Shown here: piece after piece, positions 10,670-25,381 of the stretch
Numbering within the stretch: position 1 is the first letter of the stretch
How the letters are laid out: every line of letters begins with the position of its first letter
NCBI RefSeq assembly: GCF_024345835.1
Contig: NZ_JAGQBW010000011.1
Location: 1-64,000 of the forward strand
Reading direction: 5' to 3'
Length of the DNA: 64,000 bases
From: Synechococcus sp. HJ21-Hayes
GTDB lineage: Bacteria; Cyanobacteriota; Cyanobacteriia; PCC-6307; Cyanobiaceae
Made by a program: the position numbers and the translations under genes
Notes under the pieces: generated by a model
The model's input: the letters and a program-made list of their open reading frames with translations, nothing else
Told to the model about the DNA's origin: nothing
Databases searched by the model: none

Positions 10670-10975
10670 ATGCTCCACGTTCTCAAATTCAGCTCGGAAG
10701 ACTGCGGCACCTGCCATCGCATGAGCCATTACGACGCCAGCGTGTGCGTCGAGCTGGGCTGCACCTTTGTGAGCGTGATGCTGCAGGACACGGAGGTGTA
10801 CCGCCGCTATCGCAAGGTGCTGATGGCCCAGTACCCCAACAAGGAGGGGATGGGCTGGCCTACCTATCTGGTGGTGACCGATCCCGAAGGGGAGTTCACC
10901 ATCCATGGCGAGCTCAAGGGGGGCATGCCCAAGGGCGACTTCCGCACCCGGCTCTCGGCCCTGCTGCCGGCCTGA
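10670..10975 (+). CDS. Thioredoxin-fold protein
   Basis: A 101-aa thioredoxin-like protein from ATG 10670 (GTG 10652 is in frame but not needed). The redox motif is CGTC in SSEDCGTCHRMSHYD, after a short first strand (LHVLKF). The fold continues with MGWPTYLVVTDPEGE, where the cis-proline region reads GWPTY, and ends with a helix (RTRLSALLPA). No signal peptide is present, so it is cytoplasmic. The CGTC active site differs from the CGPC of classical thioredoxins, so its partner may differ. It diverges from hli. Confidence 0.8.
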   Translation: MLHVLKFSSEDCGTCHRMSHYDASVCVELGCTFVSVMLQDTEVYRRYRKVLMAQYPNKEGMGWPTYLVVTDPEGEFTIHGELKGGMPKGDFRTRLSALLPA

Positions 10976-11084
10976 GGGCGCATTGGCTCGCCACTGGTGG
11001 GCCATCCCCCGTTTGGTGGTGGTTGTAACCCGTTGGCTGGCCCGGGCTGGGTACGGTCCGATCTGTTGTTCTTCCTTCCCTTTC

Positions 11085-11249
11085 TTGCTTCAACAGAAAG
11101 CCTTCACCCTGCTGGCCCTGGTGTTCAGCTTCGCGGTGGCCCTGGCCTCCTCTGTGATGGCCCATCCTGATCACCAACAGGCCACGCAGCAGGGCAATCC
11201 CGCTGCCCAGCACGATCACGACCACTCCCACGAACAGGCGCCGCGCTGA
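11085..11249 (+). CDS. Small secreted His-rich peptide (putative)
   Basis: A 54-residue frame from TTG 11085. Residues 1-25 form a clear signal peptide with a VMA cleavage site (FTLLALVFSFAVALASSVMA). The mature part is about 30 residues, very rich in His, Gln and Asp (HPDHQQ, QHDHDHSHEQ). Such tails bind divalent metals such as nickel, zinc or copper. The gene lies 60 bp before the guanidine riboswitch of a nickel-dependent enzyme operon, which makes a metal-related role tempting but unproven. The rare start codon keeps confidence moderate. Confidence 0.45.
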   Translation: MLQQKAFTLLALVFSFAVALASSVMAHPDHQQATQQGNPAAQHDHDHSHEQAPR

Positions 11250-11311
11250 ATCTCCATTTCGTAGTGGATGGCACCACGCCATTCCTCAATGCAGCGCAAA
11301 GTCCACGAGCG

Positions 11312-11433
11312 GATGTGATGCCTAGGGTTCCGGCTTCCCATGGGAAGTGCCTGGTCCGAGAGGCTCGGGCCGGCTATGCCGGTTGCACGGAGGGATAAAA
11401 GCCCGGGAGACCGCTCTCTCCATACCCCTCCCG
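11312..11433 (+). ncRNA. Guanidine-I (ykkC) riboswitch
   Basis: The conserved aptamer blocks occur in order: CTAGGGTTCCG (11322-11332), CTGGTCCGAGAG (11351-11362), and ACGGAGGGATAAAAG followed by CCCGGGAGA (11387-11410). Between them lie GC-rich stems, for example CGGGCCGGC/GCCGG. This is the ykkC consensus that binds free guanidinium. A possible expression platform is visible: CGGGAG (11404-11409), part of the aptamer, can pair with CTCCCG (11428-11433) immediately before the gdmH start codon. Ligand binding would then free the start region. The downstream gene encodes a guanidine hydrolase, which confirms the assignment. Confidence 0.95.
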
Positions 11434-11435
11434 TC

Positions 11436-12626
11436 ATGACATCAGAGTCTGGCGCCTCGAGCGCCTTCGAGCGGCAGCATCCCAGCGAGGGGATGCGCGC
11501 CCTAGAAAAAGAGCGTGCCCTGCCTTTAACCGGCTGGCAGCAGGAAGTGGATCAAGGCCTTCGCTACGGCCTCGAAGCTGCCGAGAGCATTGTTGATCGC
11601 CGCATCTCGACCTTCTCGAGAGGGGAACTTCCCCATTACGCCGGCATCAACACCTTTATGAAGGCCCCGTACATCGAGGATGTCAATCGGGTTGGTGAGT
11701 TTGACGTTGCCATCGTGGGGGTGCCCCATGACAGCGGCACCACCTACCGGCCCGGCACCCGTTTTGGCCCCCAGGGGATCCGGCGTATTTCGGCCCTCTA
11801 CACCCCCTACAACTACGAGATGGGAGTGGATCTGCGGGAGCAGATCACCCTCTGCGATGTGGGCGACATTTTCACCATTCCTGCCAACAACGAGAAGTCC
11901 TTCGACCAGATCTCGAAGGGCATCGCCCACGTGTTCTCCAGTGGTGCCTTCCCCATCATCCTCGGCGGTGATCATTCGATCGGCTTCCCCACGGTGCGGG
12001 GTGTGTGCCGCCACCTGGGCGACAAGAAGGTGGGCATCATTCACTTCGACCGACATGTGGACACCCAGGAGATCGACCTGGATGAACGCATGCACACCTG
12101 CCCCTGGTTCCATGCCACCAACATGGCCAATGCACCGGCCGAAAATCTTGTGCAACTGGGCATCGGTGGGTGGCAGGTACCCCGTGAGGGTGTGAAGGTG
12201 TGTCGGGAACGGGGTACCAATGTGCTCACCGTGACCGACATCTGTGAGATGGGCCTGGAGGCGGCGGCTAAGTTCGCGATTGAGCGGGCCACCGATGGCA
12301 CCGACTGCGTGTACATCTCCTTCGATATCGACTGCATTGATGCAGGCTTTGTGCCCGGAACAGGCTGGCCGGAACCCGGAGGGCTCCTGCCCCGCGAAGC
12401 CCTGAAACTGTTGGAGCTGATTGTTCGCAATGTGCCCATCTGTGGCCTTGAGGTGGTGGAGGTTTCTCCTCCCTATGACATCAGTGACATGACCTCTCTG
12501 ATGGCTACCCGTGTGATCTGTGACACCATGGCCCACATGGTGGTGAGTGGCCAGTTGCCGCGCCAATCATTGCCCTCCTGGATCAACAAGGAGTGCAACA
12601 TGGGCGTGGATCGCAAATGGAGATAG
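11436..12626 (+). CDS. gdmH: Guanidine hydrolase, Ni-dependent, ureohydrolase family
   Basis: A 396-aa arginase/agmatinase-fold enzyme predicted to hydrolyse guanidine to urea and ammonia. The metal-ligand motifs are LGGDHSIG (around residue 177), HFDRHVDTQ (around 203) and SFDIDCIDAG (around 295). The HFDRHVD sequence, with Arg where agmatinases have Ala, and the WFHATN segment match the cyanobacterial guanidine hydrolase of Synechocystis (Sll1077 type) rather than SpeB agmatinase. The N-terminus is about 60 residues longer than in agmatinases, as in that subfamily. Position directly behind a guanidine-I riboswitch and in front of HypA/HypB-like nickel chaperones supports the call strongly. 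Confidence 0.93.
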   Translation: MTSESGASSAFERQHPSEGMRALEKERALPLTGWQQEVDQGLRYGLEAAESIVDRRISTFSRGELPHYAGINTFMKAPYIEDVNRVGEFDVAIVGVPHDSGTTYRPGTRFGPQGIRRISALYTPYNYEMGVDLREQITLCDVGDIFTIPANNEKSFDQISKGIAHVFSSGAFPIILGGDHSIGFPTVRGVCRHLGDKKVGIIHFDRHVDTQEIDLDERMHTCPWFHATNMANAPAENLVQLGIGGWQVPREGVKVCRERGTNVLTVTDICEMGLEAAAKFAIERATDGTDCVYISFDIDCIDAGFVPGTGWPEPGGLLPREALKLLELIVRNVPICGLEVVEVSPPYDISDMTSLMATRVICDTMAHMVVSGQLPRQSLPSWINKECNMGVDRKWR

Positions 12627-12630
12627 GGCC

Positions 12631-13017
12631 ATGCATGAAGTTGACATGACCAAATGCCTGCTGCTCTCCATGAATGAGTGGCGCACCCGGCATGAGCCTG
12701 CTGTTCCCACGGTGGATACCGTGCACCTTCAGGTGGGTGCCTTCACCTGTGTAGAGCCGGACCAACTGGTGTTCACCTGGCAGGCCGCCGTGCGCGGCAG
12801 TTGGTTGGACGGCGCTCGCCTGAAGATCGAACCGGTGCCCCTCGTGGGCCGTTGCGTGGTGTGTTCCAGCACCTATGCACCATCTGCCGAGCAGGGCTAT
12901 CGCTCCCCCTGCTGTGAGCATCCAATGGAGGAGATCGAGAGTGGCCGTGAACTGCGCATCCGCTCCGTTGATTACACCCTGACTTCCACCCCGTTGACCG
13001 TCGCCAGCGCATCCTGA
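12631..13017 (+). CDS. HypA-like nickel chaperone of the guanidine hydrolase
   Basis: A 128-aa HypA-family protein that starts with MHE, the nickel-binding N-terminus of HypA. The zinc-binding part is modified: CVVC (residues 75-80) is followed by [14 protein letters not shown] near residue 100, where classical HypA has two CxxC pairs separated by about 12 residues. No hydrogenase or other hyp genes are present. Its location 4 bp after gdmH matches the known accessory proteins needed to load nickel into guanidine hydrolase. Annotating it as hydrogenase maturation would be misleading. Confidence 0.85.
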
Positions 13018-13027
13018 GGACCTTCCC

Positions 13028-13738
13028 ATGCATATGCCCCTCGAGGACACCCTCGGGCTCAACCTCCTGGCTGCCAATCAACACCAGGCCGAGCACAACC
13101 GTGCCCATTTCGATGCCTGGTCGCTGCTGTGTCTCAATGTGATGAGCAGCCCGGGTGCCGGCAAAACGTCCTTGCTGGAACACACCATCACCGCCCTCGC
13201 CAGTGACCTCGAGATGGCGGTGCTGGAAGGTGACATGACCACCCAACTCGATGCCCAACGGCTCGAGGCGGTGGGGGTGCCGGTGATACCCATCACCACC
13301 GGCCGTGCCTGCCATCTGGATGCCGCGATGGTGAGTGGTGGCTTGTCATTGCTGCAGCAACGGCTCGATCCGGCCAGCCTCGATGTGCTCTGGGTGGAGA
13401 ACGTGGGCAATCTGGTGTGCCCGGCGGAGTTTGAGGTGGGTGAGCACCGCAAGGTGGCCCTGCTGAGTGTCACCGAAGGCGACGACAAGCCCCTCAAGTA
13501 TCCGGTGATGTTCCGCGAGGCGGATTGCGTGTTGATCACCAAGACCGACCTGCTTCCCTACCTGCCGGTGGATCTCCAGCGCTTTGAGGCCCACATCCGC
13601 GAGGTGAATCCTCGCTGCACCGTTTTGCCGGTGTCCGCCACCAGTGGCGATGGGCTGGAGGCCTGGTACCGCTGGGTGCTGTCCAGCTGCGCCGCGTTGC
13701 GCGCCGATCCATCCCCTTGTGTGCTGGTGCCCGCATGA
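13028..13738 (+). CDS. HypB-like GTPase, nickel insertion for guanidine hydrolase
   Basis: A 236-aa SIMIBI-class GTPase of the HypB type. Visible motifs are the P-loop SSPGAGKTS (around residues 39-47), [24 protein letters not shown] with the nickel-coordinating Cys-His, [13 protein letters not shown], and the guanine specificity motif TKTD. The N-terminal CxxCGC nickel site and poly-His stretch of some HypB proteins are missing. The pair hypA-hypB behind gdmH is the known nickel delivery set. Its stop overlaps the next start by 4 bp (ATGA), indicating translational coupling to the GlnT-like ligase. Confidence 0.9.
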
Positions 13739-15093
13739 CCACCCCCTTGACGACCGCCGCACCATCCCTGCGGGCGGCATTGGAAGCCAAGGGTGTGCGC
13801 TACGCCCTGGCCAGCTTTGTTGATCTCCACGGCGTCAGCAAGGCCAAGGCTGTGCCCTTGGCCCATCTCGGCCAGATGTTCGCCGGTTCCGAGCTGTTCA
13901 CCGGCGCCGCCCTCGATGGCGTGCCCCAGGAGGTGAGTGACAACGAAGTGGCTGCGGTTCCTGATCCTTCCACCTGCACCGTGCTGCCCTGGCAGCCGGA
14001 GGTGGCTTGGTTTGCCAGTGATCTGCACCTGCAGGGCGAGCCGTTCACCGCCTGCAGCCGGAACATCCTGCAACGGGTTCGGGCCGAAGCGGCATCCATG
14101 GGGTATCGCTTCAACCTGGGCATCGAAACGGAGTTCTTCGTGCTGAAGCGCGATGCCGATGGTCGTGCCGTTCCCTTCAGCGATCGCGACACCCTCGAGA
14201 AGCCCGCCTACGACGTTCGTGGGCTGCTCGACAACCTGCCCTGGCTCGATGAACTCGTGGGCGCCATGAATCAGCTGGGTTGGGGGGTGTATTCCTTCGA
14301 CCATGAAGATGGCCCCGGACAGTTCGAAACCGACTTCGACTACGCCGACGCGTTGACCATGGCTGATCGGCTCACCTTCTTCAAGCTGATGGCCAAGGAG
14401 ATCGCCCACCGCCATGGGTTGATCGCCTCCTTCATGCCCAAGCCCTTCGGCGATCGCACAGGCAGCGGTGCCCACTACAACATGTCCCTGGCGGATGTGA
14501 CAACGGGCCAGAATCTGTTTCTCTCCGAGTCAGGAGCGCCAGGCACGGTGAGCCGTCTGGCGGATCACTTCATCGCCGGCATCCTCCGCCATGCCGCCGC
14601 CATCTGCGCGGTGATTGCCCCCACGGTGAATAGCTACAAGCGCCTGGTGGCGCAGGGCAGCATGTCCGGCTTCACCTGGGCACCGGTGTTCATCTGTTAT
14701 GGCAATAACAATCGCACCAATATGTTGCGGATTCCCTCGCCTGGAGGGCGGGTGGAGTGCCGCGCTGCAGATATCTCCTGCAATCCCTACCTGGGGGCGG
14801 CGATGATCCTTGCAGCTGGCCTGGAGGGGATCCGGGAGCAATTCGATCCTGGTGAGCCCAATCTCGTGAATGCCTACTCCCTAACTGCTGATCAGTTGGC
14901 CGAGCGGGGTATTGGCATGTTGCCACGCACGCTGGCTCAAGCCATCGAAGCCTTTGCCATGGATCCCCTTTCCAAAAAGGTATTCGGCGATGCCATGTTC
15001 GATGCCTATGTGACCTACAAACGTCAGGAGTGGGAGTCGTACCACTGCGCTGTCTCTGATTGGGAACAGAAGCGCTACTTGGAGTTCTTCTGA
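13735..15093 (+). CDS. glnT: GlnT-like glutamine synthetase family ligase (first copy)
   Basis: A 452-aa member of the small type III-like (GlnT) branch of the glutamine synthetase superfamily, which includes gamma-glutamylmethylamide synthetase. It has the catalytic-domain features of the superfamily: [10 protein letters not shown] (metal-binding Glu), [31 protein letters not shown] (ATP and glutamate site), PTVNSYKRL and [10 protein letters not shown]. Family members join glutamate to ammonia or a primary amine using ATP. Coupled to a guanidine hydrolase, it could trap the released ammonia, or a methylamine if substituted guanidines are processed. A second copy lies at 22893. Confidence 0.85.
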
Positions 15094-15132
15094 AGCGGCT
15101 GCCTGATTCCGTTTACCTGCATAACGCCTCCC

Positions 15133-16140
15133 ATGAAATTGTCATCGAAAACCCAGCGCCGCCGCGCCTTGGCACTCTCTCTGCTCACGGCGCTTGGGGC
15201 TGGCATGCTCACGGCCTGCCAGAAGCCTGGCGGTGATTCGGCCACTGTACGGCTTGGCTACAGCGCCTGGCCGGGCTGGTTCCCCTGGGCCGTTACCGAA
15301 GCCAAGGGCCTGTTTGGCGCTGCCAATGTTGGCGTGAAGCTGCAGTGGTTTGATGGCTACCTCGATTCCATCAATGCCCTGAATGCGGGGCAGCTCGATT
15401 GCAACAGCCAAACCCTGAACGACACCATCAGTTCGATTGCTGGTGGCGCTGATCTGCAGGTGGTGCTTCAGAACGACTACTCCACGGGCAATGACCAGAT
15501 CATCGCCGCTCAGGAGATCAAGACGGTGGCCGATCTCAAAGGCAAGAAGGTGGCCGCTGAGGAGGGCACTGTGGATCATTACCTGTTGCTCAAGGTGCTC
15601 AAGGATGGTGGCCTGAAGGCCTCGGATATCACCTTTGTGCCGCTGGAAACCGGAGCGGCGGCGGCGGCCTTTGCTGCCGGCAAGGTGGATGCGGCGGGTG
15701 TGTATGCACCCTTCACCACCCAGGCCCTCAAGCGACCTGGCAGCAAGGCTCTCACCACCTCCAAGGAGCACCCTGGCGCCATCAGCGACTTGTTGGTCTG
15801 TCGTCGCGGGTTTGTGGAGAAGAATCCCGAGGCTATTCAGAAGGTGGTGAATGCCTGGTTCGCCACGCTCAAGCTGATCAACGACGATCCCGCTGCCACC
15901 CTGCCCATCTTGGTGCAGCGCTCCGGGGTTTCAGAAGCTGAGTTCAAGGCCTACGACGCCGGCACAACGATTCAGACCCTGGCCCAAAACCAGGCCAACT
16001 TCAAACCTGGCAGCACGATGATTGCGCTGCCCTATGCGGCCGAGCAGATCAGCGCGTTCCTCGTGGAGGTTGGGCTGGCCAAGACCAAGCCGGACATCAG
16101 CAACTTGCTGAATGCCACCTTCGTGGATAACGCCAAGTAG
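15133..16140 (+). CDS. ABC transporter substrate-binding lipoprotein (guanidine or nitrogen compound)
   Basis: A 335-aa periplasmic binding lipoprotein of the SsuA/TauA/NMT1 type. The signal peptide ends in a lipobox (GMLTAC, Cys at about residue 29). The mature protein has the family pattern RLGYSAWPGWFPW, QWFDGYLDSINALNAGQLD, and LKGKKVAAEEGTVDHYLLL. NitT/TauT-type binding proteins are known partners of guanidine-I riboswitches, so guanidine or a derivative is the most likely ligand; the sequence alone does not prove it. The permease and ATPase genes follow directly. Confidence 0.85.
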   Translation: MKLSSKTQRRRALALSLLTALGAGMLTACQKPGGDSATVRLGYSAWPGWFPWAVTEAKGLFGAANVGVKLQWFDGYLDSINALNAGQLDCNSQTLNDTISSIAGGADLQVVLQNDYSTGNDQIIAAQEIKTVADLKGKKVAAEEGTVDHYLLLKVLKDGGLKASDITFVPLETGAAAAAFAAGKVDAAGVYAPFTTQALKRPGSKALTTSKEHPGAISDLLVCRRGFVEKNPEAIQKVVNAWFATLKLINDDPAATLPILVQRSGVSEAEFKAYDAGTTIQTLAQNQANFKPGSTMIALPYAAEQISAFLVEVGLAKTKPDISNLLNATFVDNAK

Positions 16141-16148
16141 GGCCTGTG

Positions 16149-16922
16149 ATGACAACAGTCGAGCTGCGGAGACTCCTGAGCCAGCCATGGGTTTTGGGCC
16201 TTTTTGGCATCCTGGGGGTGCTGATCGTGTGGTTCCTCTCCACGGCCAGTGGTGCTGTTGACAAGCTGTTCCTGCCCTCGCCTCTGGCGGTCTGGCAGGC
16301 CGGCCAGACCCAGTGGTCCAGAGGCATCCTCGTGAAGGATGCCCTGGCCAGCATCCAGCGCGTGTTCCTTGGTTTTGCCCTCTCGGCAGGGGTTGCCCTG
16401 CCCCTGGGCATTGCCATGGGCACGAATGCCGTGATCTGTCGCCTGCTGGAGCCCCTGATTGGCTTGATCCGCTATATGCCGGCGCCCGCTTTCATCCCGC
16501 TGCTGATCATCTACTTCGGCCTGGAGGAGTTGCCCAAGGTGCTGTTGATCTTCATCGGCACCGTGTTCTTCAACACCCTGATGATCATGGATGCGGTGAA
16601 GTTCGTGCCCCGGGAGCTGGTGGAAACGGCCCTCACCCTGGGGGGCAAGGGTTTTCCCATCCTTACCCGAGTGGTTGCTCCCTTCATTGCCCCCCAGGTG
16701 TTGGACACCTACCGAATCAATATGGCCTCCGCCTGGAATCTCGTGATCGTGGCGGAACTCGTGGCGGCCACTGAGGGTCTTGGCAAACGCATCAGCCTGG
16801 CCCAGCGCTTCCTGCACACCGATGAGATCTTTGTGGGTTTAATTGTGATCGGTTTGATCGGCCTTGTGATCGATCTTGGCTTCCGGTTCTTGATGCGCCG
16901 TGCCTGCTCCTGGGCCAACTGA
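16149..16922 (+). CDS. ABC transporter permease, SsuC/TauC type
   Basis: A 257-aa permease with about six hydrophobic helices and the EAA-type coupling loop region (ETALTLGGKGFPILTRVVAP). The family pattern IRYMPAPAFIPLLIIYFGLEE is that of nitrate/sulfonate/taurine permeases. ATG 16149 is preferred; a GTG at 16146 precedes it directly. It forms the membrane channel with the lipoprotein upstream and the ATPase 10 bp downstream. Confidence 0.87.
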   Translation: MTTVELRRLLSQPWVLGLFGILGVLIVWFLSTASGAVDKLFLPSPLAVWQAGQTQWSRGILVKDALASIQRVFLGFALSAGVALPLGIAMGTNAVICRLLEPLIGLIRYMPAPAFIPLLIIYFGLEELPKVLLIFIGTVFFNTLMIMDAVKFVPRELVETALTLGGKGFPILTRVVAPFIAPQVLDTYRINMASAWNLVIVAELVAATEGLGKRISLAQRFLHTDEIFVGLIVIGLIGLVIDLGFRFLMRRACSWAN

Positions 16923-16932
16923 CTAGATCCCC

Positions 16933-17703
16933 ATGCATCTTCAGGTTTCCAGCGTCTGCAAGAGCTTCGGCCACGGCAAGGCCCGCAAGTTGGTGCTCGA
17001 TCATGTGTCCTTCGATCTTCACTCTGGGGACTTTCTCGCCCTGGTGGGTCCCTCGGGTTCGGGCAAGTCCACCGTGATGCGTCTCATTGCCGGGCTTGAC
17101 CATCCCAGCAGCGGCAGCATCTGCCTGGATGGACAGCCGGTGCTTGGTCCCGGTTCGGACCGGGGCATGGTGTTTCAAAAGTACAGCCTTTATCCCTGGC
17201 TCACTGCTGCTCAGAACGTGGCCTTCGGCATGGAGTTGCAGGGGCGTTCCCGTTCCGAGGTGCGGGAGCGCACGGGCTATTTCCTTGAGGTTGTGGGTTT
17301 GGCGGATGCAGCACGGCGTCTGCCCCGGGAACTCTCCGGTGGCATGCAGCAGCGGGTGGCCATCGCCCGCGCCCTCGCCGCCGATCCCAAGCTGTTGCTG
17401 CTGGATGAACCCTTCGGTGCCCTGGATATCCAGATCCGTGAATCGATGCAGGAGTTCCTGCATCAGCTCTGGCAGCGCACCGGGCTCACGGCCCTGTTGA
17501 TCACCCACGACCTGGAGGAGGCCTTGCTGCTGGCCAATCGTGTGCACATCTTGGCGCCGAATCCAGGCCGGATTGTGCGCAGCGTGGCTGTGACCTTGGA
17601 TCGCACCGCGATGGCGGACGTGCGGCTGTCTGCGGAGTTTCTCGCCATGCGCGAGGACTTGGCCAGGGGGCTGCGGGCCCTGGAGCCGGCCCTGCCTTCA
17701 TGA
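16933..17703 (+). CDS. ABC transporter ATP-binding protein, SsuB/TauB type
   Basis: A 256-aa ATPase with Walker A GPSGSGKST (around residues 38-46), Q-loop VFQKYSLYPWLT, signature LSGGMQQR, Walker B LLLLDEPFGALD and the H-loop LITHDLEEA. It completes the three-gene importer of the riboswitch-controlled operon. Its stop overlaps the start of the Rieske gene by 4 bp (ATGA), so the oxygenase is translationally coupled to the transporter. Confidence 0.9.
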   Translation: MHLQVSSVCKSFGHGKARKLVLDHVSFDLHSGDFLALVGPSGSGKSTVMRLIAGLDHPSSGSICLDGQPVLGPGSDRGMVFQKYSLYPWLTAAQNVAFGMELQGRSRSEVRERTGYFLEVVGLADAARRLPRELSGGMQQRVAIARALAADPKLLLLDEPFGALDIQIRESMQEFLHQLWQRTGLTALLITHDLEEALLLANRVHILAPNPGRIVRSVAVTLDRTAMADVRLSAEFLAMREDLARGLRALEPALPS

Positions 17704-18743
17704 CCCTCTCCGAATCAGGGCCCCAGCCCTTTTTGCCCGCTTCGGTGTATGGCTCTGCCGCCATTGCCCAGCAGGAGCGCGAGCGCTACGCCCCGCAGTT
17801 CTGGCACCCCGTCGCCAGCCTGGATGGGCTGCCCCCGGGCCACAGCCTCGCCCTTGAGGTGCAGGGGTTGCCGGTGCTGCTCACCCGCACGGAAGACACC
17901 CCCACGGCCTTTGTGAACCGGTGCCCCCATCGTGGTGTGGCGCTGTTGGCGGCTAAAGCGGAGGCTCGGGCCTGTCGCCGTCTGGTCTGTCCCTACCACG
18001 GCTGGACCTACAACCTCCAGGGTGACCTCCTGGCCGCTGCCCGCGAGGGAGATTTCCTCACACCGTTTGATCGCCGCCAATGGCCCCTGGCTGGACTGGG
18101 CTGTGAGGTGTTCGCCAACCTGATCTGGGTGGCGATCGGCTCCAACCCCCTGCCCCTCGCGCAGCAACTCGATCTCGTGCTGCAGGAGGCGGTTGATCTA
18201 CTCGATCGGCCCCGGGTGTTACTGGCTCAGCAGAGCCGCATCCTGCAGTGCAACTGGAAGATCGCCCACGACAACACTCTCGACGACTATCACGTTGCCA
18301 TTGCCCATCCCACCACGCTCCACCGCGAGCAGGGGCCGGTGCGCCAGTACCGCCACGCCCTGAGCTCCCATGGCTCGTTGCTGGCCACGCCCTACCCGGC
18401 GGGCGGTGAGTTCCTCACCTTCGGCCTGGCCCCCTGGACCCACCTGCTGTTCTGGCCAGATGGCCGCATGGCGGTGATCAGTTTTCCCCCGTTGGATCCC
18501 CAGCACTGCCGCATGGATGTGTGGCTTCTGGGCCACCCCAGCCTTCGCCCCGGAGCAGATGCCTGGATGGAGGAGGTGCTGGGCTTTCTCGAGGAAGACC
18601 GGCTGCTGGTGGAATCGGCCCAGATCGGCTACGCCAGTGGCCTGGTGCCAGGGCCGCCCCATCGCCTCGAGCAACGCATCCTCCAGCATCAGGCCCTCTA
18701 CGCCGCGCTGATGGGGTTCAGCGCTCCAGAGCTCCTGCCTTGA
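17700..18743 (+). CDS. Rieske non-heme iron oxygenase, alpha subunit
   Basis: A 347-aa oxygenase. The N-terminal Rieske domain carries the [2Fe-2S] ligands in CPHRG (around residue 79) and CPYHGWTY (around residue 99). The C-terminal domain has the mononuclear iron motif DDYHVAIAHP (around residue 195), close to choline- and carnitine-monooxygenase-type enzymes. No reductase gene is adjacent. Its co-translation with a putative guanidine importer suggests it processes an imported N-alkylated compound, for example by oxidative N-demethylation. That is inference; no substrate can be read from the sequence. The 3' end overlaps the convergent epimerase-like gene by 26 bp. Confidence 0.85.
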   Translation: MTLSESGPQPFLPASVYGSAAIAQQERERYAPQFWHPVASLDGLPPGHSLALEVQGLPVLLTRTEDTPTAFVNRCPHRGVALLAAKAEARACRRLVCPYHGWTYNLQGDLLAAAREGDFLTPFDRRQWPLAGLGCEVFANLIWVAIGSNPLPLAQQLDLVLQEAVDLLDRPRVLLAQQSRILQCNWKIAHDNTLDDYHVAIAHPTTLHREQGPVRQYRHALSSHGSLLATPYPAGGEFLTFGLAPWTHLLFWPDGRMAVISFPPLDPQHCRMDVWLLGHPSLRPGADAWMEEVLGFLEEDRLLVESAQIGYASGLVPGPPHRLEQRILQHQALYAALMGFSAPELLP

Positions 18744-19563
18744 TCCAAGCCCCCAGGCTGCAGTTGATCTCCTCCAGGTCAGCCACCGGTTGGCCTGTGA
18801 AGGGCAACTGGGGCAGGTAGCCATCCGGGCCAAACTCCGGGGTCATCGTGCGTGGGGCCAAGCCACGCCGGCGTTGCGATTGGCTGAATAGAGCCCAGCA
18901 GCGCCGATGGGCCTCCAAGGCCTCGGCCCATTCCGGGGCCAATGGGTGACCTACCGAGGGGCCCTGGGCATGGCCCACCCGCGCGTGGATGTGGTCCACC
19001 CGTTCGGCCATGGCCTGGATGGGCGTGAGCTCTGGGGTCATCAGGCGTTCAGCCACCGCACACCAGTGACTCAAATCCGCCGTGAGGCGTAGATCGGGAT
19101 AGGTGCTCAGCCAATCCTCGATGGTCCAGGGGTTGAACAGGCTGCGGGAGCGATGGGTTTCAAAGCTCACCGGAGCCGCTGCCCCCTTGGCCAGCGCCAC
19201 GGCCTCGCCCCAGAATTCCCGTTGCTGCTGAGCTCCCCAGGCGTCGGAGCCGGCAATCACGCTGATCCGCAGCGGCTGCAGCTCCAGGGCCTGCTGCAGC
19301 CGCTCGCCCAGCTCCTGCAGCTGCTGCGCCGGGCCCCGCTCAAGGCTTGGTACGTAGTCACCGCCGGTGACAATCTCCACAATCAAGCCCTGACGGGCCT
19401 GGCTGAAGGTCTCGAGCACCTGCTGCGTCGTGAGCCCGGCAAGGCACGAATGGTGCAGGTTCAGCTCGAGGCCATCAAAACCCTGAGCCGCGGCCAGGTT
19501 CTGAGCCTGGGCCAGGCTGCCGCTGAAGCCCCAGAGGGTCTTGAACAGCAGCAGCTCGCTCAC
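18718..19563 (-). CDS. Sugar phosphate isomerase/epimerase-like TIM-barrel protein
   Basis: A 281-aa AP-endonuclease-2/xylose-isomerase-like TIM-barrel protein. Typical strand-end motifs are GFDGLELNLHH (residues 29-39), VSFETHRSRSLF (around residue 131), LTADLSHWCAV (around 160) and VDHIHARVGHAQG (around 189), with the His, Asp and Glu residues expected to bind a divalent metal. The substrate is unknown. It is transcribed against the guanidine operon, so it is not part of that unit. It overlaps the small gene upstream on the same strand by 4 bp. Confidence 0.78.
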   Translation of the reverse strand: MSELLLFKTLWGFSGSLAQAQNLAAAQGFDGLELNLHHSCLAGLTTQQVLETFSQARQGLIVEIVTGGDYVPSLERGPAQQLQELGERLQQALELQPLRISVIAGSDAWGAQQQREFWGEAVALAKGAAAPVSFETHRSRSLFNPWTIEDWLSTYPDLRLTADLSHWCAVAERLMTPELTPIQAMAERVDHIHARVGHAQGPSVGHPLAPEWAEALEAHRRCWALFSQSQRRRGLAPRTMTPEFGPDGYLPQLPFTGQPVADLEEINCSLGAWIKAGALER

Positions 19564-19766
19564 GGCGCCTCGTTCTGGGTGAACAGATCCGGCTGGATGT
19601 CGAGATACACCGCTTCCTTGAAGAGGGCCTGCTTGGCCTCCGCATCGTCGTGTTCCAGGGCCTTCGTGTAGCGCTCCCGCAGGGACGCGATCAGGGCCTG
19701 GCGCTGGGCGTCACTGCTGGCCATGGTCTGGAGGCTGAAGCTCTGGGCAATGTAGGCAGGCTCCAC
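19560..19766 (-). CDS. Small conserved-looking protein coupled to the TIM-barrel gene
   Basis: A 68-aa helical, charged protein from GTG 19766 (ATG 19724 is in frame). I do not recognise the family. It has no signal peptide and shows amphipathic helices (RQALIASLRERYTKALEH, EAKQALFKEAVYLDI). The stop overlaps the start of the TIM-barrel gene by 4 bp, so the two are probably one transcription unit and may work together. Confidence 0.6.
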   Translation of the reverse strand: MEPAYIAQSFSLQTMASSDAQRQALIASLRERYTKALEHDDAEAKQALFKEAVYLDIQPDLFTQNEAP

Positions 19767-20971: not shown

Positions 20972-21889
20972 ATGGCACAGGCATCGACACCCCTGATTCC
21001 TCGGCAACCCCTCGCGGAGCTGAATGGTCTGCGGGATGCCCCTGGCTGGATCCGGCTCACCTCCCATGTGCTCACCATCGTGGTGGGGGGCATCCTCTGG
21101 CGAGCGGCGGGCCTGCCCTGGGGGTTGCGCCTGCTGGGCCTGTTGGCCAGTGGCATTGGCCTGGCCACTGGCTTTGCTCCGTTGCACGAGTGCGGCCATC
21201 GCACCGTGTTCCGCAGCAAGCGTCTCAACGACGGCGTGGCCTGGTGCGCCGGCTTGCTGAGCTTCTACAACAGCACCTTCTACCGCCGCTACCACCAGTG
21301 GCACCACCGCTTCACCCACCAGCCCGGCCTTGATCCGGAGCTGGAGGATCCCGTGCCGACCAGCGGCTGGACCTATCTCCTGGAGGTGAGCGGTTGGCAC
21401 TGGTGGACCGGCAAGCTCTCCGGCTATCACTCCCTGCTCTGGGGAGATCTCTCCGATCGTGCCTACCTCAGCCCGGAGTCGATTCCGCAGGTACGCCGCT
21501 CGGTGCGTGTTCAATTCCTGGTGTACGGCCTGCTGCTGCTGGCCTCGCTGATCGGTGGCAACGGCTTTCTGTGGTGGAGTTGGCTCCTGCCCCTGGCGGT
21601 GGGGCAGCCCTTCCTGCGGCTGCTGCTGCTAGCGGAGCACAGCGGTTGCAGTTTCGGCACCGATGGCACCACCAACACCCGCACCACCCTCACGATCGCT
21701 CCGGTGCGCTGGTTGATGTGGAACATGCCATTCCACGCCGAGCACCATTTGTATCCCTCCTTGCCGTTCCATGCCCTGCCTGCGGCGCACCGCTGGACAG
21801 CTCCCCACCTGAGCCACTTGGATCCCGGCTACCTCGCCGTGCACCGCGAGCTGCTGCGTCAGCTGCCCAGCCTGGCCCTGCCCCGATGA
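20972..21889 (+). CDS. Fatty-acid-desaturase-fold protein
   Basis: A 305-aa membrane protein with the three histidine boxes of membrane di-iron desaturases/hydroxylases: HECGH (around residue 74), HQWHHRFTH (around 109) and HAEHH (around 252). Four hydrophobic segments surround them. The family includes acyl-lipid desaturases, carotenoid ketolases and alkyl hydroxylases. The box spacing resembles fatty acid desaturases more than CrtW. The substrate is unknown. Its stop overlaps the MetX-like gene start by 4 bp (ATGA), linking it to that enzyme. Confidence 0.8.
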   Translation: MAQASTPLIPRQPLAELNGLRDAPGWIRLTSHVLTIVVGGILWRAAGLPWGLRLLGLLASGIGLATGFAPLHECGHRTVFRSKRLNDGVAWCAGLLSFYNSTFYRRYHQWHHRFTHQPGLDPELEDPVPTSGWTYLLEVSGWHWWTGKLSGYHSLLWGDLSDRAYLSPESIPQVRRSVRVQFLVYGLLLLASLIGGNGFLWWSWLLPLAVGQPFLRLLLLAEHSGCSFGTDGTTNTRTTLTIAPVRWLMWNMPFHAEHHLYPSLPFHALPAAHRWTAPHLSHLDPGYLAVHRELLRQLPSLALPR

Positions 21890-22875
21890 GTGCTGTGATC
21901 AGCCGTCAGGCCGACAGCTTTGCCCTTGGGGATCTGATCCTCGCCTGCGGCCAGACCATCCCCAACGCCCAGCTCAGCTACCTCGCCATCGGTGAGCTCA
22001 ACGCCGATCGCTCCAACCTGATCCTGGTGCCGACCTCCTATGGCGCCCGGCCAGAGGATCTTGCCTGGATTGCAGGCCTTGTTCTGGATCCAGAGCGCTA
22101 CTGCATCGTGATCGCCGGAAGCTTTGGCAATGGCGCCTCCAGCAGCCCTAGCCATGGCGCCATGGGTCTGGCGGAACAGGGTTGGCTGGTGCAGCACGCC
22201 GACAACGTGGCGGCCCAGAAGCGGCTGCTGGAGGAGGTGTTCCAGGTGCAGCAGCTGCCGCTCATCTATGGCTGGTCCATGGGGGCGCAGCAGGCCTACC
22301 AGTGGGCAGTGACCTATCCCGACTGGGTGCAGCGGATCTGCTGCCTCTGCGGCACCACGCGCACCTCGCCCCACAACCGCCTGTTCTGCCTCAGCCTGCG
22401 CCAGGCCCTCACCGCCGACCGCCATTGGAATGGCGCCGGTTTCGATGCCGAACCGCTCGATGGCCTGCGCACCTATGCCCTGATCTACGCCAGCTGGGCC
22501 GCCAGCCAACCCTTCTTTCGCACGATTGACACCTCCGTAGAGGAGCACGTGGAGCAGGCCTGGCTGCCCCACTACCGCCGCCATGACCCTCGGGATCTGA
22601 TCGCCATGCTCGACACCTGGCTCAGCCACGATGTGGCTGCAGGGGGTGATCTCGGGGCCGCCCTGCGGCGCATCAGCGCCCGCACGGCCGTGGTGGCCTG
22701 CAACCGCGACCTCTACTTCACCCTCGACGACATGGCCGCCGATGTCGACCGCATCCGCGGCGCCTCTCTGCACGTGATCGATTCCCTGTTGGGCCATCGC
22801 GCCGGGAACCCCCACAGCAGTGCTCCGGAGCAGCAACAGCTGCGCCGCATCGTTGAGCAGCTGCTGGCCAGCTGA
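21886..22875 (+). CDS. Alpha/beta hydrolase, homoserine acetyltransferase (MetX)-like
   Basis: A 329-aa alpha/beta hydrolase with the nucleophile elbow YGWSMGAQQAY (Ser around residue 130), the NHRLG-like segment HNRLFCLSL and a C-terminal LGHRAG His. It resembles the MetX branch of acyltransferases, but the typical GGSMGG elbow is altered to GWSMGA and the homoserine-binding context is weak. It may therefore act as a hydrolase or acyltransferase on another substrate. Coupling to a desaturase upstream and a GlnT-like ligase 17 bp downstream suggests a dedicated pathway rather than methionine synthesis. Confidence 0.78.
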   Translation: MSAVISRQADSFALGDLILACGQTIPNAQLSYLAIGELNADRSNLILVPTSYGARPEDLAWIAGLVLDPERYCIVIAGSFGNGASSSPSHGAMGLAEQGWLVQHADNVAAQKRLLEEVFQVQQLPLIYGWSMGAQQAYQWAVTYPDWVQRICCLCGTTRTSPHNRLFCLSLRQALTADRHWNGAGFDAEPLDGLRTYALIYASWAASQPFFRTIDTSVEEHVEQAWLPHYRRHDPRDLIAMLDTWLSHDVAAGGDLGAALRRISARTAVVACNRDLYFTLDDMAADVDRIRGASLHVIDSLLGHRAGNPHSSAPEQQQLRRIVEQLLAS

Positions 22876-22892
22876 GTTCTCTCGCCTTCCCC

Positions 22893-24194
22893 ATGACTGA
22901 CCTCGCCAGCCTGGCCCGTGAGCACCAGCTCAAGTTTCTGCTGATCTCCTTCACCGACCTCTTCGGTGTGCAGCGCTCCAAGTTGGTGCCCGCCAGCGCC
23001 ATCCCGGCGATGGCCCGCGATGGCGCCGGCTTCGCAGGTTTTGCCGCCTGGCTCGAGCTCAGTCCGGCGGATGGCGATGTGATGGCCATCCCGGACGCTT
23101 CCAGCCTCATGCCCCTGCCCTGGCAGCCCGAGGTGGGCTGGGTGGCCGCCGAGCTCACCCTCAACGGTGCCCCCATGGCCCAATGTCCGCGCCGGCTATT
23201 GCGTGCCCAGCAGCAGCGGGCTGCTGCCCTGGGTTTCCAGCTGCGCACCGGGGTGGAGGCGGAGTTCTTCCTGCTGGAGGCCAGCGGCGAGGCCATCGCC
23301 GACCCGGCCGACACCCAGATCAAACCCTGCTACGACCAGATGGCGCTGATGCGGCGCTACGGATTGATCGGCCCCCTGCTGGAGGGTATGGAGCAGCTGG
23401 GCTGGGGCCCCTACCAGGCCGATCATGAGGATGCCAATGGCCAGTTCGAAGTGAACTGGACCTATGCCGATGCCCTGGTGACAGCCGATCGCCATGCCTT
23501 TTTCAAGGTGATGGTGAAGTCCCTGGCGGAGCAGCAGGGCCTGCGGGCCAGCTTCATGCCCAAGCCGTTCGCGAGCCTCACCGGCAACGGCTGCCACACC
23601 CACCTGTCCCTGTGGGATCGCGAGGGTCGCAATGCCTTCCACGACCCCAGCGGTGAGCTCGGCCTCTCGGCGGTGGCCTACCAGTTCCTCGCGGGCCTGA
23701 TCGCCCATGCTCCTGCCCTGGCCTGCCTCACCAACCCCACGGTGAACAGCTACCGCCGCCTCGCGGCCCCTCCCACCACCTCTGGAGCCACCTGGAGTCC
23801 AGGCGGCATCAGCTACAGCGGCAACAACCGCACCCACATGGTGCGCATCCCGGATGATCAGCGGTTGGAGTTCCGCCTGCCCGATGGTGCCGTTCATCCC
23901 TACCTGCTGCAGGCGGCTGTTCTGGCGGCGGGGCTCGATGGCCTGGAACGGCAACTCAGCCCCGGCCCCCGCTGCGACAACGACAACTATGCCGAGCCCC
24001 TGGCGACGGGCGACGCTGCCCGGCTGCCCCGTGATCTCGGCGAGGCCCTCCATGCCTTTGCCGGTGATGCGGTGCTGCGCGCAGCCCTTGGTGAGGAGTT
24101 CTGCCGGGCCTATGAGCGACTGCGCCGGCGCCAGTGGGAGGCCTACCGCAGTGAGGTGACAGCCTGGGAGCGGCACACCGGGTTGGATGGTTGA
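22893..24194 (+). CDS. GlnT-like glutamine synthetase family ligase (second copy)
   Basis: A 433-aa paralogue of the ligase at 13735. Shared landmarks are GVEAEFFLL, DHEDANGQFEVNWTYADAL, MPKPFASLTGNGCHTHLSL, PTVNSYRRLAAP and NNRTHMVRIP. The residues around the ATP/glutamate site are kept, so it should be an active ATP-dependent gamma-glutamyl ligase. The amine-side pocket differs from the first copy (for example NGCHTH against GSGAHYN), suggesting a different acceptor. Its stop overlaps the glycosyltransferase start. Confidence 0.83.
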   Translation: MTDLASLAREHQLKFLLISFTDLFGVQRSKLVPASAIPAMARDGAGFAGFAAWLELSPADGDVMAIPDASSLMPLPWQPEVGWVAAELTLNGAPMAQCPRRLLRAQQQRAAALGFQLRTGVEAEFFLLEASGEAIADPADTQIKPCYDQMALMRRYGLIGPLLEGMEQLGWGPYQADHEDANGQFEVNWTYADALVTADRHAFFKVMVKSLAEQQGLRASFMPKPFASLTGNGCHTHLSLWDREGRNAFHDPSGELGLSAVAYQFLAGLIAHAPALACLTNPTVNSYRRLAAPPTTSGATWSPGGISYSGNNRTHMVRIPDDQRLEFRLPDGAVHPYLLQAAVLAAGLDGLERQLSPGPRCDNDNYAEPLATGDAARLPRDLGEALHAFAGDAVLRAALGEEFCRAYERLRRRQWEAYRSEVTAWERHTGLDG

Positions 24195-25381
24195 TGCAGG
24201 TGCAAGGGGCGGTGTCGCTGCTGGCTTGGCTCCCTGTGGCGGGCCTGGCGTTGATGCTGCTCAAGCTGGAGCTTGAACTGGGCCGTGCCCCACGGCTCCA
24301 GCCCCTCGCCCCTTGTGCTGAACCCGTCTCTCCGGTGCCGTTGCACCTGCGGGTGGTGATCCCCGCCTACAACGAGGCCGACAACATCGCCGACTGCATC
24401 AGCGCGGCCCTGGCCAGCCGTGATCCCGGCGTGCCCTGGCAGTTGGTGGTGATCGACGATGCTTCCAGCGACACCACCCATGCCCTGGCCCGCGAGGCCC
24501 TGGGTCCCGATACACCTGAACGGTTGCTGTTGCAGGCGGGTCCGCGCCCGGTGGGGGAGCGCTGGTGTGGCAAGAACTGGGCCGCCGGTCTGGCGGCCGC
24601 TGCCCCCTGGCCGGCAGGGGATCCAGCCCAGCAGTGGCTGTTGTTTCTCGATGCCGACGTGCGCCTGCGCCCTGAAGCCCTGGCTGCCGCCCTGGCGGAT
24701 GCCACCGCCCACGGCAGCGACCTGCTCTCCCTGGCCCCGCGCCTGCAGTGCAGCTGCCTGGCGGAATGGCTGGTGCAGCCGATCGTGGCCACGCTGCTGG
24801 GCCTGGGCTTTCCGATGGAGCGCAGCAATGACCCCGCCGATCCCACCGCCTTTGCCGCCGGGCCGTTCATGTTGTTCCGCCGCAGTGCCTATGCAGCTGT
24901 TGGCGGCCATGCCGCCGTGGCTGGCGAGGTGGTGGAAGACCTGGCCCTGGCGCGGTTGATTAAGGCCTCTGGCCTGCAGCTGCGCTACCTGCTCGGGGTG
25001 GACTTGGTGGATTTGCAGATGTATCGCAGCCTTTCTGCCCTGTGGGAGGGCTGGACCAAGAACTGGTTCCTCGGTCTCGACCGCGACTGGATCAAGGCCC
25101 TTGGCAGTGCGGGGGTTGTGCTGCTGCTGTTTGCGGCTCCCTGGGGGGTGTTGCTGGCCGCCTTGGGGCTGCATCAGCCCCTCTGGCTGCCGCCAGCCCT
25201 GGTGGGCATCAGCCTGCTGTTGGCCCTGCGGCTGTGGAGCTGGTGGCGCTTTGGTACACCAATTCGCTACTGGTGGCTGAGCTGGTTGGGGGCTCTGTTG
25301 ATCGCGGCGATCGTGCCAGCCAGTATCTGGAAAACCAGCACCGGACAGGGATGGACCTGGCGCGGCCGCCAGCTGGCCTAA
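24194..25381 (+). CDS. Family 2 glycosyltransferase, membrane-bound
   Basis: A 395-aa GT-A glycosyltransferase. After one N-terminal hydrophobic segment comes the catalytic domain with VVIPAYNEADNI, VVIDDASSD, the metal-binding LFLDADVRL (DxD), and a late VVEDLALARLIK motif. Three C-terminal hydrophobic helices follow. The layout resembles hopanoid- or carotenoid-associated GT2 enzymes (HpnB/CruC-like), but the acceptor is not evident. Translation starts at ATG 24194, overlapping the ligase stop by one base. It converges with a short reverse frame. Confidence 0.83.
   Translation: MQVQGAVSLLAWLPVAGLALMLLKLELELGRAPRLQPLAPCAEPVSPVPLHLRVVIPAYNEADNIADCISAALASRDPGVPWQLVVIDDASSDTTHALAREALGPDTPERLLLQAGPRPVGERWCGKNWAAGLAAAAPWPAGDPAQQWLLFLDADVRLRPEALAAALADATAHGSDLLSLAPRLQCSCLAEWLVQPIVATLLGLGFPMERSNDPADPTAFAAGPFMLFRRSAYAAVGGHAAVAGEVVEDLALARLIKASGLQLRYLLGVDLVDLQMYRSLSALWEGWTKNWFLGLDRDWIKALGSAGVVLLLFAAPWGVLLAALGLHQPLWLPPALVGISLLLALRLWSWWRFGTPIRYWWLSWLGALLIAAIVPASIWKTSTGQGWTWRGRQLA

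Follow-up and report, generated by a model that had tools for sequence, protein, structure and literature searches.

The locus described here raises the question of why a guanidine riboswitch should precede not only genes for guanidine uptake and hydrolysis but also two further enzymes, a GlnT-like ligase and a Rieske non-heme iron oxygenase. Guanidine biology was opened up through riboswitches, and extra enzymes under guanidine control hint that cells may handle modified guanidines too. The operon lies on the forward strand of contig NZ_JAGQBW010000011.1 of the cyanobacterium Synechococcus sp. HJ21-Hayes (assembly GCF_024345835.1; 2.94 Mb, 39 contigs, 97.7% complete), within positions 1 to 64,000, the whole stretch of DNA that was analyzed and that is called the window below. 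The answer favored here, at a probability of roughly 0.48, is that one guanidine-induced transcript extends guanidine uptake and hydrolysis to N-substituted guanidines, with the Rieske enzyme acting as an N-dealkylase and GlnT as a gamma-glutamyl ligase whose amine substrate is not ammonia. The two additional enzymes, being kept under guanidine control, point to directly testable substrates. The operon consists of the following elements, in which ABC stands for ATP-binding cassette:

11310..11411, + strand: guanidine-I (ykkC) riboswitch aptamer (RF00442, 82.9 bits; motif kept in homologous operons)
11436..12626, + strand: gdmH, predicted Ni-dependent guanidine hydrolase (guanidinase), 396 aa (PF00491; 7esr/7oi1 match)
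12631..13017, + strand: hypA-like nickel chaperone (PF01155, 86 bits)
13028..13738, + strand: hypB-like nickel GTPase (TIGR00073, 279 bits, cut-off 121)
13735..15093, + strand: GlnT-like gamma-glutamyl ligase, operon-specific subgroup (TIGR03105, 574 bits; residue pattern; tree)
15133..16140, + strand: SsuA/TauA-type substrate-binding protein, SBP (TIGR01728, 225.3 bits, cut-off 163.5)
16149..16922, + strand: ABC importer permease (PF00528, BPD_transp_1, 76.5 bits)
16933..17703, + strand: ABC importer ATPase (PF00005, ABC_tran, 116.5 bits)
17700..18743, + strand: Rieske non-heme iron oxygenase, proposed N-dealkylase (PF00355, 54 bits; PF00848, 55.5 bits)

An earlier note on this DNA had described a guanidine-I riboswitch followed by eight co-directional genes, and this layout is confirmed. 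The aptamer match (E 2.8e-13, gathering score 63) is the only guanidine-I riboswitch that Rfam places in the window, and it ends 24 nt upstream of the gdmH ATG at 11436. From gdmH to the Rieske gene, the gaps are, in order, +4, +10, −4, +39, +8, +10 and −4 bp, the two 4-bp overlaps being those of glnT onto hypB and of the Rieske gene onto the ATPase gene. GdmH matches the Pfam Arginase family at 261 bits and, over residues 9-396 of 396, PDB entries 7esr/7oi1 (named there "Probable agmatinase 2") at 776 bits; 7oi1 is presumably Synechocystis GdmH. Full-length homologues of other cyanobacteria are 81-93% identical to it. The hypA and hypB genes follow directly 3' of gdmH, with HypA reaching 81.5 bits against the NCBI equivalog, below the cut-off of 88.1, while the best PDB match of the SBP is SsuA (2x26, 72.5 bits). 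These family searches bear out the gene names proposed earlier and support a single riboswitch operon that holds GdmH, the chaperones for its nickel, an importer of the SsuA/TauA type and a Rieske enzyme whose metal ligands are intact. Simple scans of positions 10950-19600 for a promoter or terminator that would separate the Rieske gene revealed none: no promoter-like sites were found, and the seven terminator-like sites are no excess over shuffled sequences (5.3, standard deviation 2.5).

The strongest sign that GlnT and the Rieske oxygenase belong to the guanidine response comes from Tildeniella torsiva UHER 1998/13D (Oculatellaceae), where they form a separable unit. On one contig of this genome (locus L167), a guanidine-I riboswitch of 83.8 bits is followed by genes for GlnT, SBP, permease, ATPase and Rieske oxygenase, without gdmH; GlnT is 70% and the Rieske protein 37% identical to the window proteins. 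A second guanidine-I riboswitch (85.7 bits), on a different contig (L245), precedes gdmH, hypA and hypB. This arrangement was seen in one genome, whose record is titled MAG (metagenome-assembled genome). As far as the literature was searched, a separable riboswitch-GlnT-importer-Rieske module is unreported.

A survey of synteny across cyanobacteria, which the earlier note had called for, revealed the same gene order in dozens of genomes. GdmH (E <= 1e-80) is encoded in 59 of 386 genomes across the phylum, namely the window's own, 14 more in its family and 44 outside, and 40 of the 58 other loci were read (14 in the family and 26 of the 44 outside). Among the 14 family loci, glnT stands between hypB and the SBP gene in five, and a Rieske gene is present in 11. 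As for the remaining three, L034 is truncated by a contig end and its Rieske gene was found in L079; L046 belongs to a genome (G324) in which the Rieske gene lies at another place (L132); and for L045, a remote match of 30 bits is all that its genome (G370) yields for the Rieske protein. Outside the family, the Rieske gene accompanies gdmH in 2/26 loci (L063, L067) and glnT in 1/26 (L048), where it lies between hypA and hypB in a genome (G170) without a full-length close Rieske protein. Importer genes beside gdmH, with no Rieske gene, characterize 18 of these 26 loci.

The Rieske protein itself (E <= 1e-30) was found in 92 of 400 sampled family genomes, and 94 loci, around those Rieske genes and including the earlier family loci, were examined. 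Three of them (L034, L045, L046) have no Rieske match above 33%, and distance filters left 89 loci with at least 900 bp and 78 with at least 7 kb upstream. An ATPase gene lies directly 5' of the Rieske gene (<250 bp) in 89/89, and GdmH is encoded upstream in 76/78. The two exceptions, L130 (G601) and L132 (G324), contain the importer and Rieske genes alone, with gdmH on the same contig about 145 kb and about 163 kb away, respectively; the distant gdmH of G324 (L046) is accompanied by hypA and hypB and by no importer. Since gdmH is distant and the importer adjacent in both genomes, the Rieske gene evidently stayed with the importer. Named relatives with the operon include Synechococcus sp. UW140 and BO 8801 and, for the marine form, Prochlorococcus, and the window's family is accordingly taken to be the one to which the picocyanobacteria belong. 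The Rieske gene is also present in Prochlorococcus genomes, which could make its substrate relevant to the supply of nitrogen in the sea.

Selection on the genes was estimated from the ratio of nonsynonymous to synonymous substitution rates (dN/dS) in 18 hand-picked locus pairs of related genomes. The medians are 0.072 for GdmH (17 pairs), 0.075 for GlnT (15), 0.10 for the SBP (18) and 0.23 for the Rieske protein (18), which indicates purifying selection on all four, weakest on the Rieske gene. With identical gene order in dozens of genomes and purifying selection, the operon is more than a chance neighbourhood. Gene order, the riboswitch match, residue patterns, co-inheritance and purifying selection are direct observations. 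Adjoining the operon on the opposite strand, 18718-19563 (-) encodes a protein without a Pfam match that neighbors it in many family loci, its homologues lying upstream of gdmH in some loci and downstream of the Rieske gene in others.

The distribution of glnT follows two operon types, distinguished by their SBPs. Among the 76 loci with GdmH upstream, 45 combine a type-A SBP with glnT, 30 have a type-B SBP without glnT, and one (L103) has neither; L107, counted among the 45, holds glnT as broken pieces only. In the SBP tree, types A and B separate with support of 100/100 each, and the SBPs of L048 and L167 fall outside A. The counts of 45/45 and 0/30 would suit inheritance of GlnT as a unit with the type-A importer, yet this idea was rejected because of L048 and L167 and because L045 and L155, both outside the 7-kb filter, have type-A SBPs without glnT. 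As the GlnT operons of L048 and L167 have SBPs outside clade A, GlnT tracks guanidine operons and not one importer. The close GlnT form (at least 67% identity) occurs in 7 of the 386 phylum-wide genomes, always within a gdmH operon, and is a marker of guanidine operons. In L107, L103, L155 and L045, whose operons are otherwise type A or related, glnT is broken or absent, and the gene seems dispensable in some strains.

Retention of the riboswitch was followed with two aptamer motifs (5' and 3'), sought upstream of gdmH with few mismatches tolerated; two loci were too close to a contig end. Both motifs are present in 49/49 type-A loci, in 17/19 type-B loci outside the Prochlorococcus-like group (with the 3' motif alone retained in the remaining two) and in 25/26 loci outside the window's family. 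"Prochlorococcus-like" is here an inferred label, based on small genome size and on Rieske identity of 35-37%, as in named Prochlorococcus loci. The exception outside the family is L047, where gdmH is the last gene in its row, so that the region searched lay away from the beginning of the cluster. Both motifs also occur in L103, and the 5' motif alone in L046. A Glutamine-II riboswitch occurs elsewhere in L141, L162, L130 and L132.

What, then, does GlnT do? It scores 574.1 bits (cut-off 469.6) against TIGR03105, a family named type III glutamate--ammonia ligase. Its best PDB match is the glutamate--methylamine ligase 9qur (406 bits), with RhGmaS (7cql) at 337 bits and glutamine synthetases at 281 or less. 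Residues were compared in 51 rows representing 50 distinct operon GlnTs (L048 occurs twice), with the contig-cut GlnTs of L077 and L092 omitted and the broken one of L107 removed by an identity filter; RhGmaS numbering follows PMC7948447. The methylamine-ligase residues Lys30', Tyr147, Tyr174, Asp177, Glu179, Glu186 and Arg312 are found in all 50, including the catalytic residues of GmaS, Asp177, Glu186 and Arg312 (PMC7948447). All 50 also have Ser175, Asp188, Phe189, Asn237 and an FTGAA flap, where the compared methylamine ligases have Gln, Asn, Trp/Tyr, His and FAG(F/G)A, respectively; the methylamine pocket of Gln175 and Asn188 is therefore absent from each of them. The two solved glutamine synthetases compared carry Glu174, Ala175, His177 and FDGSS, and this ammonia site, FDGSS with the active-site His, is replaced (FTGAA, Asp) in 50/50. 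The view of GlnT as an ordinary glutamine synthetase was rejected because of this loss. At positions 188, 189 and 237, the Asp, Phe and Asn of the operon GlnTs match the same two glutamine synthetases.

By these residues, GlnT is classed not as a glutamine synthetase but within a subgroup of gamma-glutamyl-amide ligases with an altered amine pocket. Its amine substrate would appear to be something different from ammonia, and the standard methylamine route appears unlikely for this enzyme. The altered pocket may suit some other cation, a suggestion offered as a hypothesis only because positions 188, 189 and 237 also resemble those of glutamine synthetase. In a tree of 38 hand-picked rows, the 15 operon GlnTs stand apart from two methylamine-ligase groups and, by a long branch (2.98), from glutamine synthetases. 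The branch that separates them, supported at 100/99, also includes one long, unsure Rhodococcus row, and the fork of operon GlnTs only has 89/70. An AlphaFold model of GlnT was poor (predicted local distance difference test, pLDDT, 46 from five sequences) and was not used. The subgroup may perhaps represent a new enzyme activity and is, as far as searched, unreported.

More distant homologues, 39-45% identical, occur on proteobacterial plasmids. In all seven such records read (Pseudomonas, Acinetobacter, Aquabacterium, Paraburkholderia, Rhizobium, Aminobacter and Paracoccus), the GlnT homologue adjoins glutamine-amidotransferase-type, GXGXG/glxC and flavin mononucleotide (FMN) glutamate-synthase-like genes, which we take to encode N-methylglutamate synthase. 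Three further records, from Leptolyngbya, Rhodococcus and Natronorubrum, show no such neighbourhood. In the window's genome, at 97.7% completeness, a search for the GXGXG family found no separate N-methylglutamate synthase subunit, its single match lying in a 1588-residue frame.

The window holds a second GlnT-like gene, GlnT2, at 22893-24194 (+), which scores 628 bits against TIGR03105 and has the methylamine-ligase residue pattern. It belongs to a row at 20972-25381 (+) made up of a fatty-acid-desaturase-like gene, an alpha/beta hydrolase gene, GlnT2 and then a glycosyltransferase gene. The first three recur together in other family loci, in L249 and on a Leptolyngbya plasmid (L256), and in L247 they are distant from the gdmH of the same genome. 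For the desaturase-like protein (20972-21889, +), the guanitoxin arginine hydroxylase GntB is the best NCBIfam match, but its 41 bits fall far short of the cut-off (380) and indicate superfamily kinship only.

The Rieske oxygenase retains its metal sites. Ligands C75, H77, C97, H198, H203 and D300 are present in 93/93 sequences and H100 in 92, with one X (two short sequences were omitted, and residues were mapped by alignment to solved relatives); the CxH...CxxH cluster and the 2-His-1-Asp iron site are both complete in the operon enzyme. Thr193, corresponding to CntA position 203, is likewise found in 93/93, where group V enzymes have Tyr/Phe (Va) or Asn (Vb). Asp196 and Val199 occupy the positions of the group V Cys pair (CntA Cys206/Cys209), and bridging position 195 (CntA Glu205) is Asp in 90 sequences and Cys in three (L063, L067, L167). 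Group V signatures were taken from PMC10952381 and PMC7948474, and membership of that group was rejected in view of Thr193 and the missing Cys pair. In the three Cys-bearing proteins (L063:7774-8862, L067:7707-8807, L167:9836-10984), the invariant Asp follows the Cys.

Fold comparison was possible with an AlphaFold model of pLDDT 90 (17 sequences). Its nearest structure is CntA (Z 35.2, root-mean-square deviation 2.5, 332 aligned), and entries of stachydrine demethylase reach Z 33.2 at most (3vca), with a terephthalate dioxygenase at 33.6; such comparisons inform on fold, not on substrate. The nearest solved relatives, carnitine monooxygenase and stachydrine demethylase, oxidise N-alkyl cations. 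None of the eight operon proteins has a Pfam match to the 2-oxoglutarate/Fe(II) dioxygenases (MgdH family). In a wider genome scan for Rieske kin, a sample of the best 80 loci, nine are cyanobacterial (L159-L167) and carry the operon or part of it (contig-cut or Tildeniella). For the other 71, tblastn with the window proteins found no close gdmH or GlnT; the weak matches are an arginase-family protein in L212 (32%), importer-like genes in L172 (24-42%) and, in L170 and L217, hits to GlnT (33%) and GlnT2 (46% over 254 residues), respectively. When plasmids were searched with the Rieske protein, 33 records matched, and identity is 26-34% in the 25 that were listed.

These pieces can be assembled into a mechanism for the favored reading, in which we infer the substrates of the Rieske enzyme, GlnT and the importer, as well as the induction of the operon. 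The riboswitch would bind guanidine and allow the operon to be expressed, and the SsuA-type ABC importer would take up guanidine together with one of its small alkylated forms, for example methylguanidine. The Rieske oxygenase would hydroxylate the N-alkyl carbon, releasing guanidine and an aldehyde, and would thereby do the job of the unrelated dioxygenase MgdH in Vreelandella; a 2-oxoglutarate dioxygenase is not a Rieske enzyme. HypA and HypB would load nickel into GdmH, which would convert guanidine to urea and ammonia, a reaction known for the GdmH family, and urease, whose alpha subunit is encoded in the window's genome, would complete the process. GlnT would join glutamate to a cationic amine of the pathway, which would be trapped or detoxified in this way; as a first guess, guanidine itself or one of its substituted forms would be this amine, in preference to ammonia or methylamine.

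Oxidative N-demethylation, as the earlier note had proposed it, fits the kinship with CntA and stachydrine demethylase and the precedent of MgdH/MgdL, which demethylates methylguanidine within a guanidine-riboswitch operon (PMC12508155). A comammox guanidinase forms no urea from methylguanidine, which is stated to be consistent with work on the cyanobacterial enzyme (PMC11410670). With a guanidinase inactive on methylguanidine, a cell importing this compound would have to demethylate it before GdmH could act, a task for which the Rieske enzyme is the obvious candidate. In a bolder version, to which only limited credence is given, GlnT would attach glutamate directly to guanidine or alkylguanidine and would form, with the importer and the Rieske enzyme, a second, hydrolase-independent guanidine module, the one standing alone behind the Tildeniella riboswitch.

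Several observations weigh against this picture. Guanidinium is a poor nucleophile, and the operon contains neither an enzyme acting on a gamma-glutamyl product nor a further gene fit to be an MgdL-like lyase. The glutamine-synthetase-like residues at positions 188, 189 and 237 of GlnT may be ancestral rather than redesigned. Kinship does not settle N-dealkylation, because the signatures published for group V are absent from the Rieske enzyme, and the terephthalate dioxygenase TPADO, with Z 33.6, is only 1.6 behind CntA. The guanidine-I riboswitch motif was found in 0 of the 12 Prochlorococcus-like loci (within L141-L154), which retain gdmH through to Rieske, and no riboswitch was found before the importer-Rieske pair of the split loci L130 and L132. 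G370 has gdmH and the importer, with no close Rieske protein and no operon GlnT anywhere in the genome. Finally, the Vreelandella guanidine-I riboswitch shows no methylguanidine binding up to 1 mM (PMC12508155), and an alkylguanidine may for this reason induce only once converted; a review, by contrast, anticipates an effect of methylguanidine on guanidine riboswitches (PMC12186494).

It is conceivable, if rather unlikely, that the importer and the Rieske enzyme serve a second cation other than guanidine, such as a small betaine or a guanidino acid, with the shared transcript reflecting nitrogen scavenging and GlnT taking the released amine. Such a division is suggested by L130 and L132, where the Rieske gene stays with the importer far from gdmH, by the oxidation of quaternary amines by the nearest solved relatives, by the fast evolution of the Rieske gene (dN/dS 0.23 vs. 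0.07 for GdmH) and by the SsuA-family membership of the importer. However, in Tildeniella GlnT, importer and Rieske lie directly behind a guanidine-I riboswitch, importers stand beside gdmH without a Rieske gene in 18/26 loci outside the family, and the aromatic residue of the carnitine/choline enzymes is missing (Thr193). The trap proposed in the earlier note, in which opening of a methylated guanidine would release methylamine or ammonia for capture by GlnT as gamma-glutamylmethylamide or glutamine, is weakened by the present results and is now a doubtful explanation, which leaves that note's interpretation partly supported. The kinship of GlnT with glutamate--methylamine ligase, the retained Asp177, Glu186 and Arg312, and the N-methylglutamate operon make-up around the homologues in the seven proteobacterial records would all suit it. 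Nevertheless, oxidative demethylation releases formaldehyde, not methylamine. Capture of ammonia is hard to reconcile with the replaced FDGSS site and neighbouring His in 50/50 and with the further glutamine-synthetase-domain proteins in the genome. Pocket positions 175 and 188 differ from those of methylamine ligases in the same 50 proteins, and methylamine would lack both a source, given the inactivity of the guanidinase on methylguanidine (PMC11410670), and a sink, the sole GXGXG protein being a long GOGAT-like frame with no separate subunit of that family.

Improbable is a moonlighting role of GlnT as a glutamine synthetase that assimilates ammonia from GdmH and urease, with the Rieske gene as a passenger. 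The name of TIGR03105 and the score of 574 against a cut-off of 470 favor it, as do Asp188, Phe189 and Asn237; yet the FDGSS motif and catalytic-site His are lost, the same model rates GlnT2, with its methylamine-ligase residues, higher (628), other glutamine-synthetase-domain proteins are available, and the Rieske ligands are conserved in 93/93 sequences, one X apart. Chance neighbourhood or hitch-hiking is scarcely credible. The absence of glnT from the type-A or related loci L045, L103 and L155, its broken state in L107 and the lack of both extra genes in G370 (L045) are in its favor, but it is contradicted by gene order conserved across distant cyanobacteria, by the 4-bp overlaps, by purifying selection and by the separate riboswitch-led module of Tildeniella. 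The guanidine-induced pathway for N-substituted guanidines is retained as the preferred interpretation.

Comparison with published systems indicates which parts of the operon are new. The earlier note had regarded the coupling of both enzymes to the guanidine operon as novel. For the Rieske gene this claim is rejected because the coupling is already published: Dore et al. 2023 (PMC10119275) described a cluster of ykkC riboswitch, speB2 guanidinase, hypA, hypB and TauABC-like importer in marine picocyanobacteria, with a putative Rieske protein in most Synechococcus/Cyanobium genomes bearing it. For GlnT the claim stands, in that no published link of a guanidine operon with a GlnT-like ligase was found in a search whose coverage did not extend to the 2025 PNAS paper on cyanobacterial guanidine and the 2022 Nature paper on GdmH; the term "glutamine synthetase" is absent from the main text of Dore et al. 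2023 (PMC10119275).

The operon sll1077-sll1082 of Synechocystis PCC 6803 shares the riboswitch, guanidinase, two chaperones and SsuA-type importer with the present one (PMC8390497), whereas it has no Rieske gene (PMC10119275) and no GlnT among its genes as listed in PMC8390497. The clusters Syn-eCAG_001 and Pro-eCAG_004 share speB2, hypA, hypB, TauABC-like importer, Rieske gene and ykkC riboswitch (PMC10119275); the 30 type-B loci, taken to be of this marine kind, differ from the window operon by having no GlnT and an importer of a different clade. With GmaS (RhGmaS 7cql; 9qur), the operon GlnT has in common the family, Asp177, Glu186, Arg312, Lys30' and the lost ammonia site, but it has Ser175, Asp188 and FTGAA in place of Gln175, Asn188 and FAG(F/G)A, and the window's genome encodes no separate GXGXG subunit. 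Similarly, the group V Rieske enzymes CntA, Stc2 and GbcA are nearest to the operon Rieske in sequence and fold, yet the latter has Thr for Tyr/Phe/Asn at CntA position 203, Asp for Glu205 and no Cys206/Cys209. The MgdH/MgdL system of Vreelandella provides a parallel in design, as there, too, an oxygenase has been added to a guanidine-riboswitch nitrogen operon; it differs in using a 2-oxoglutarate dioxygenase, a lyase and a guanidine carboxylase pathway, where the cyanobacterial operon has a Rieske enzyme (PMC12508155).

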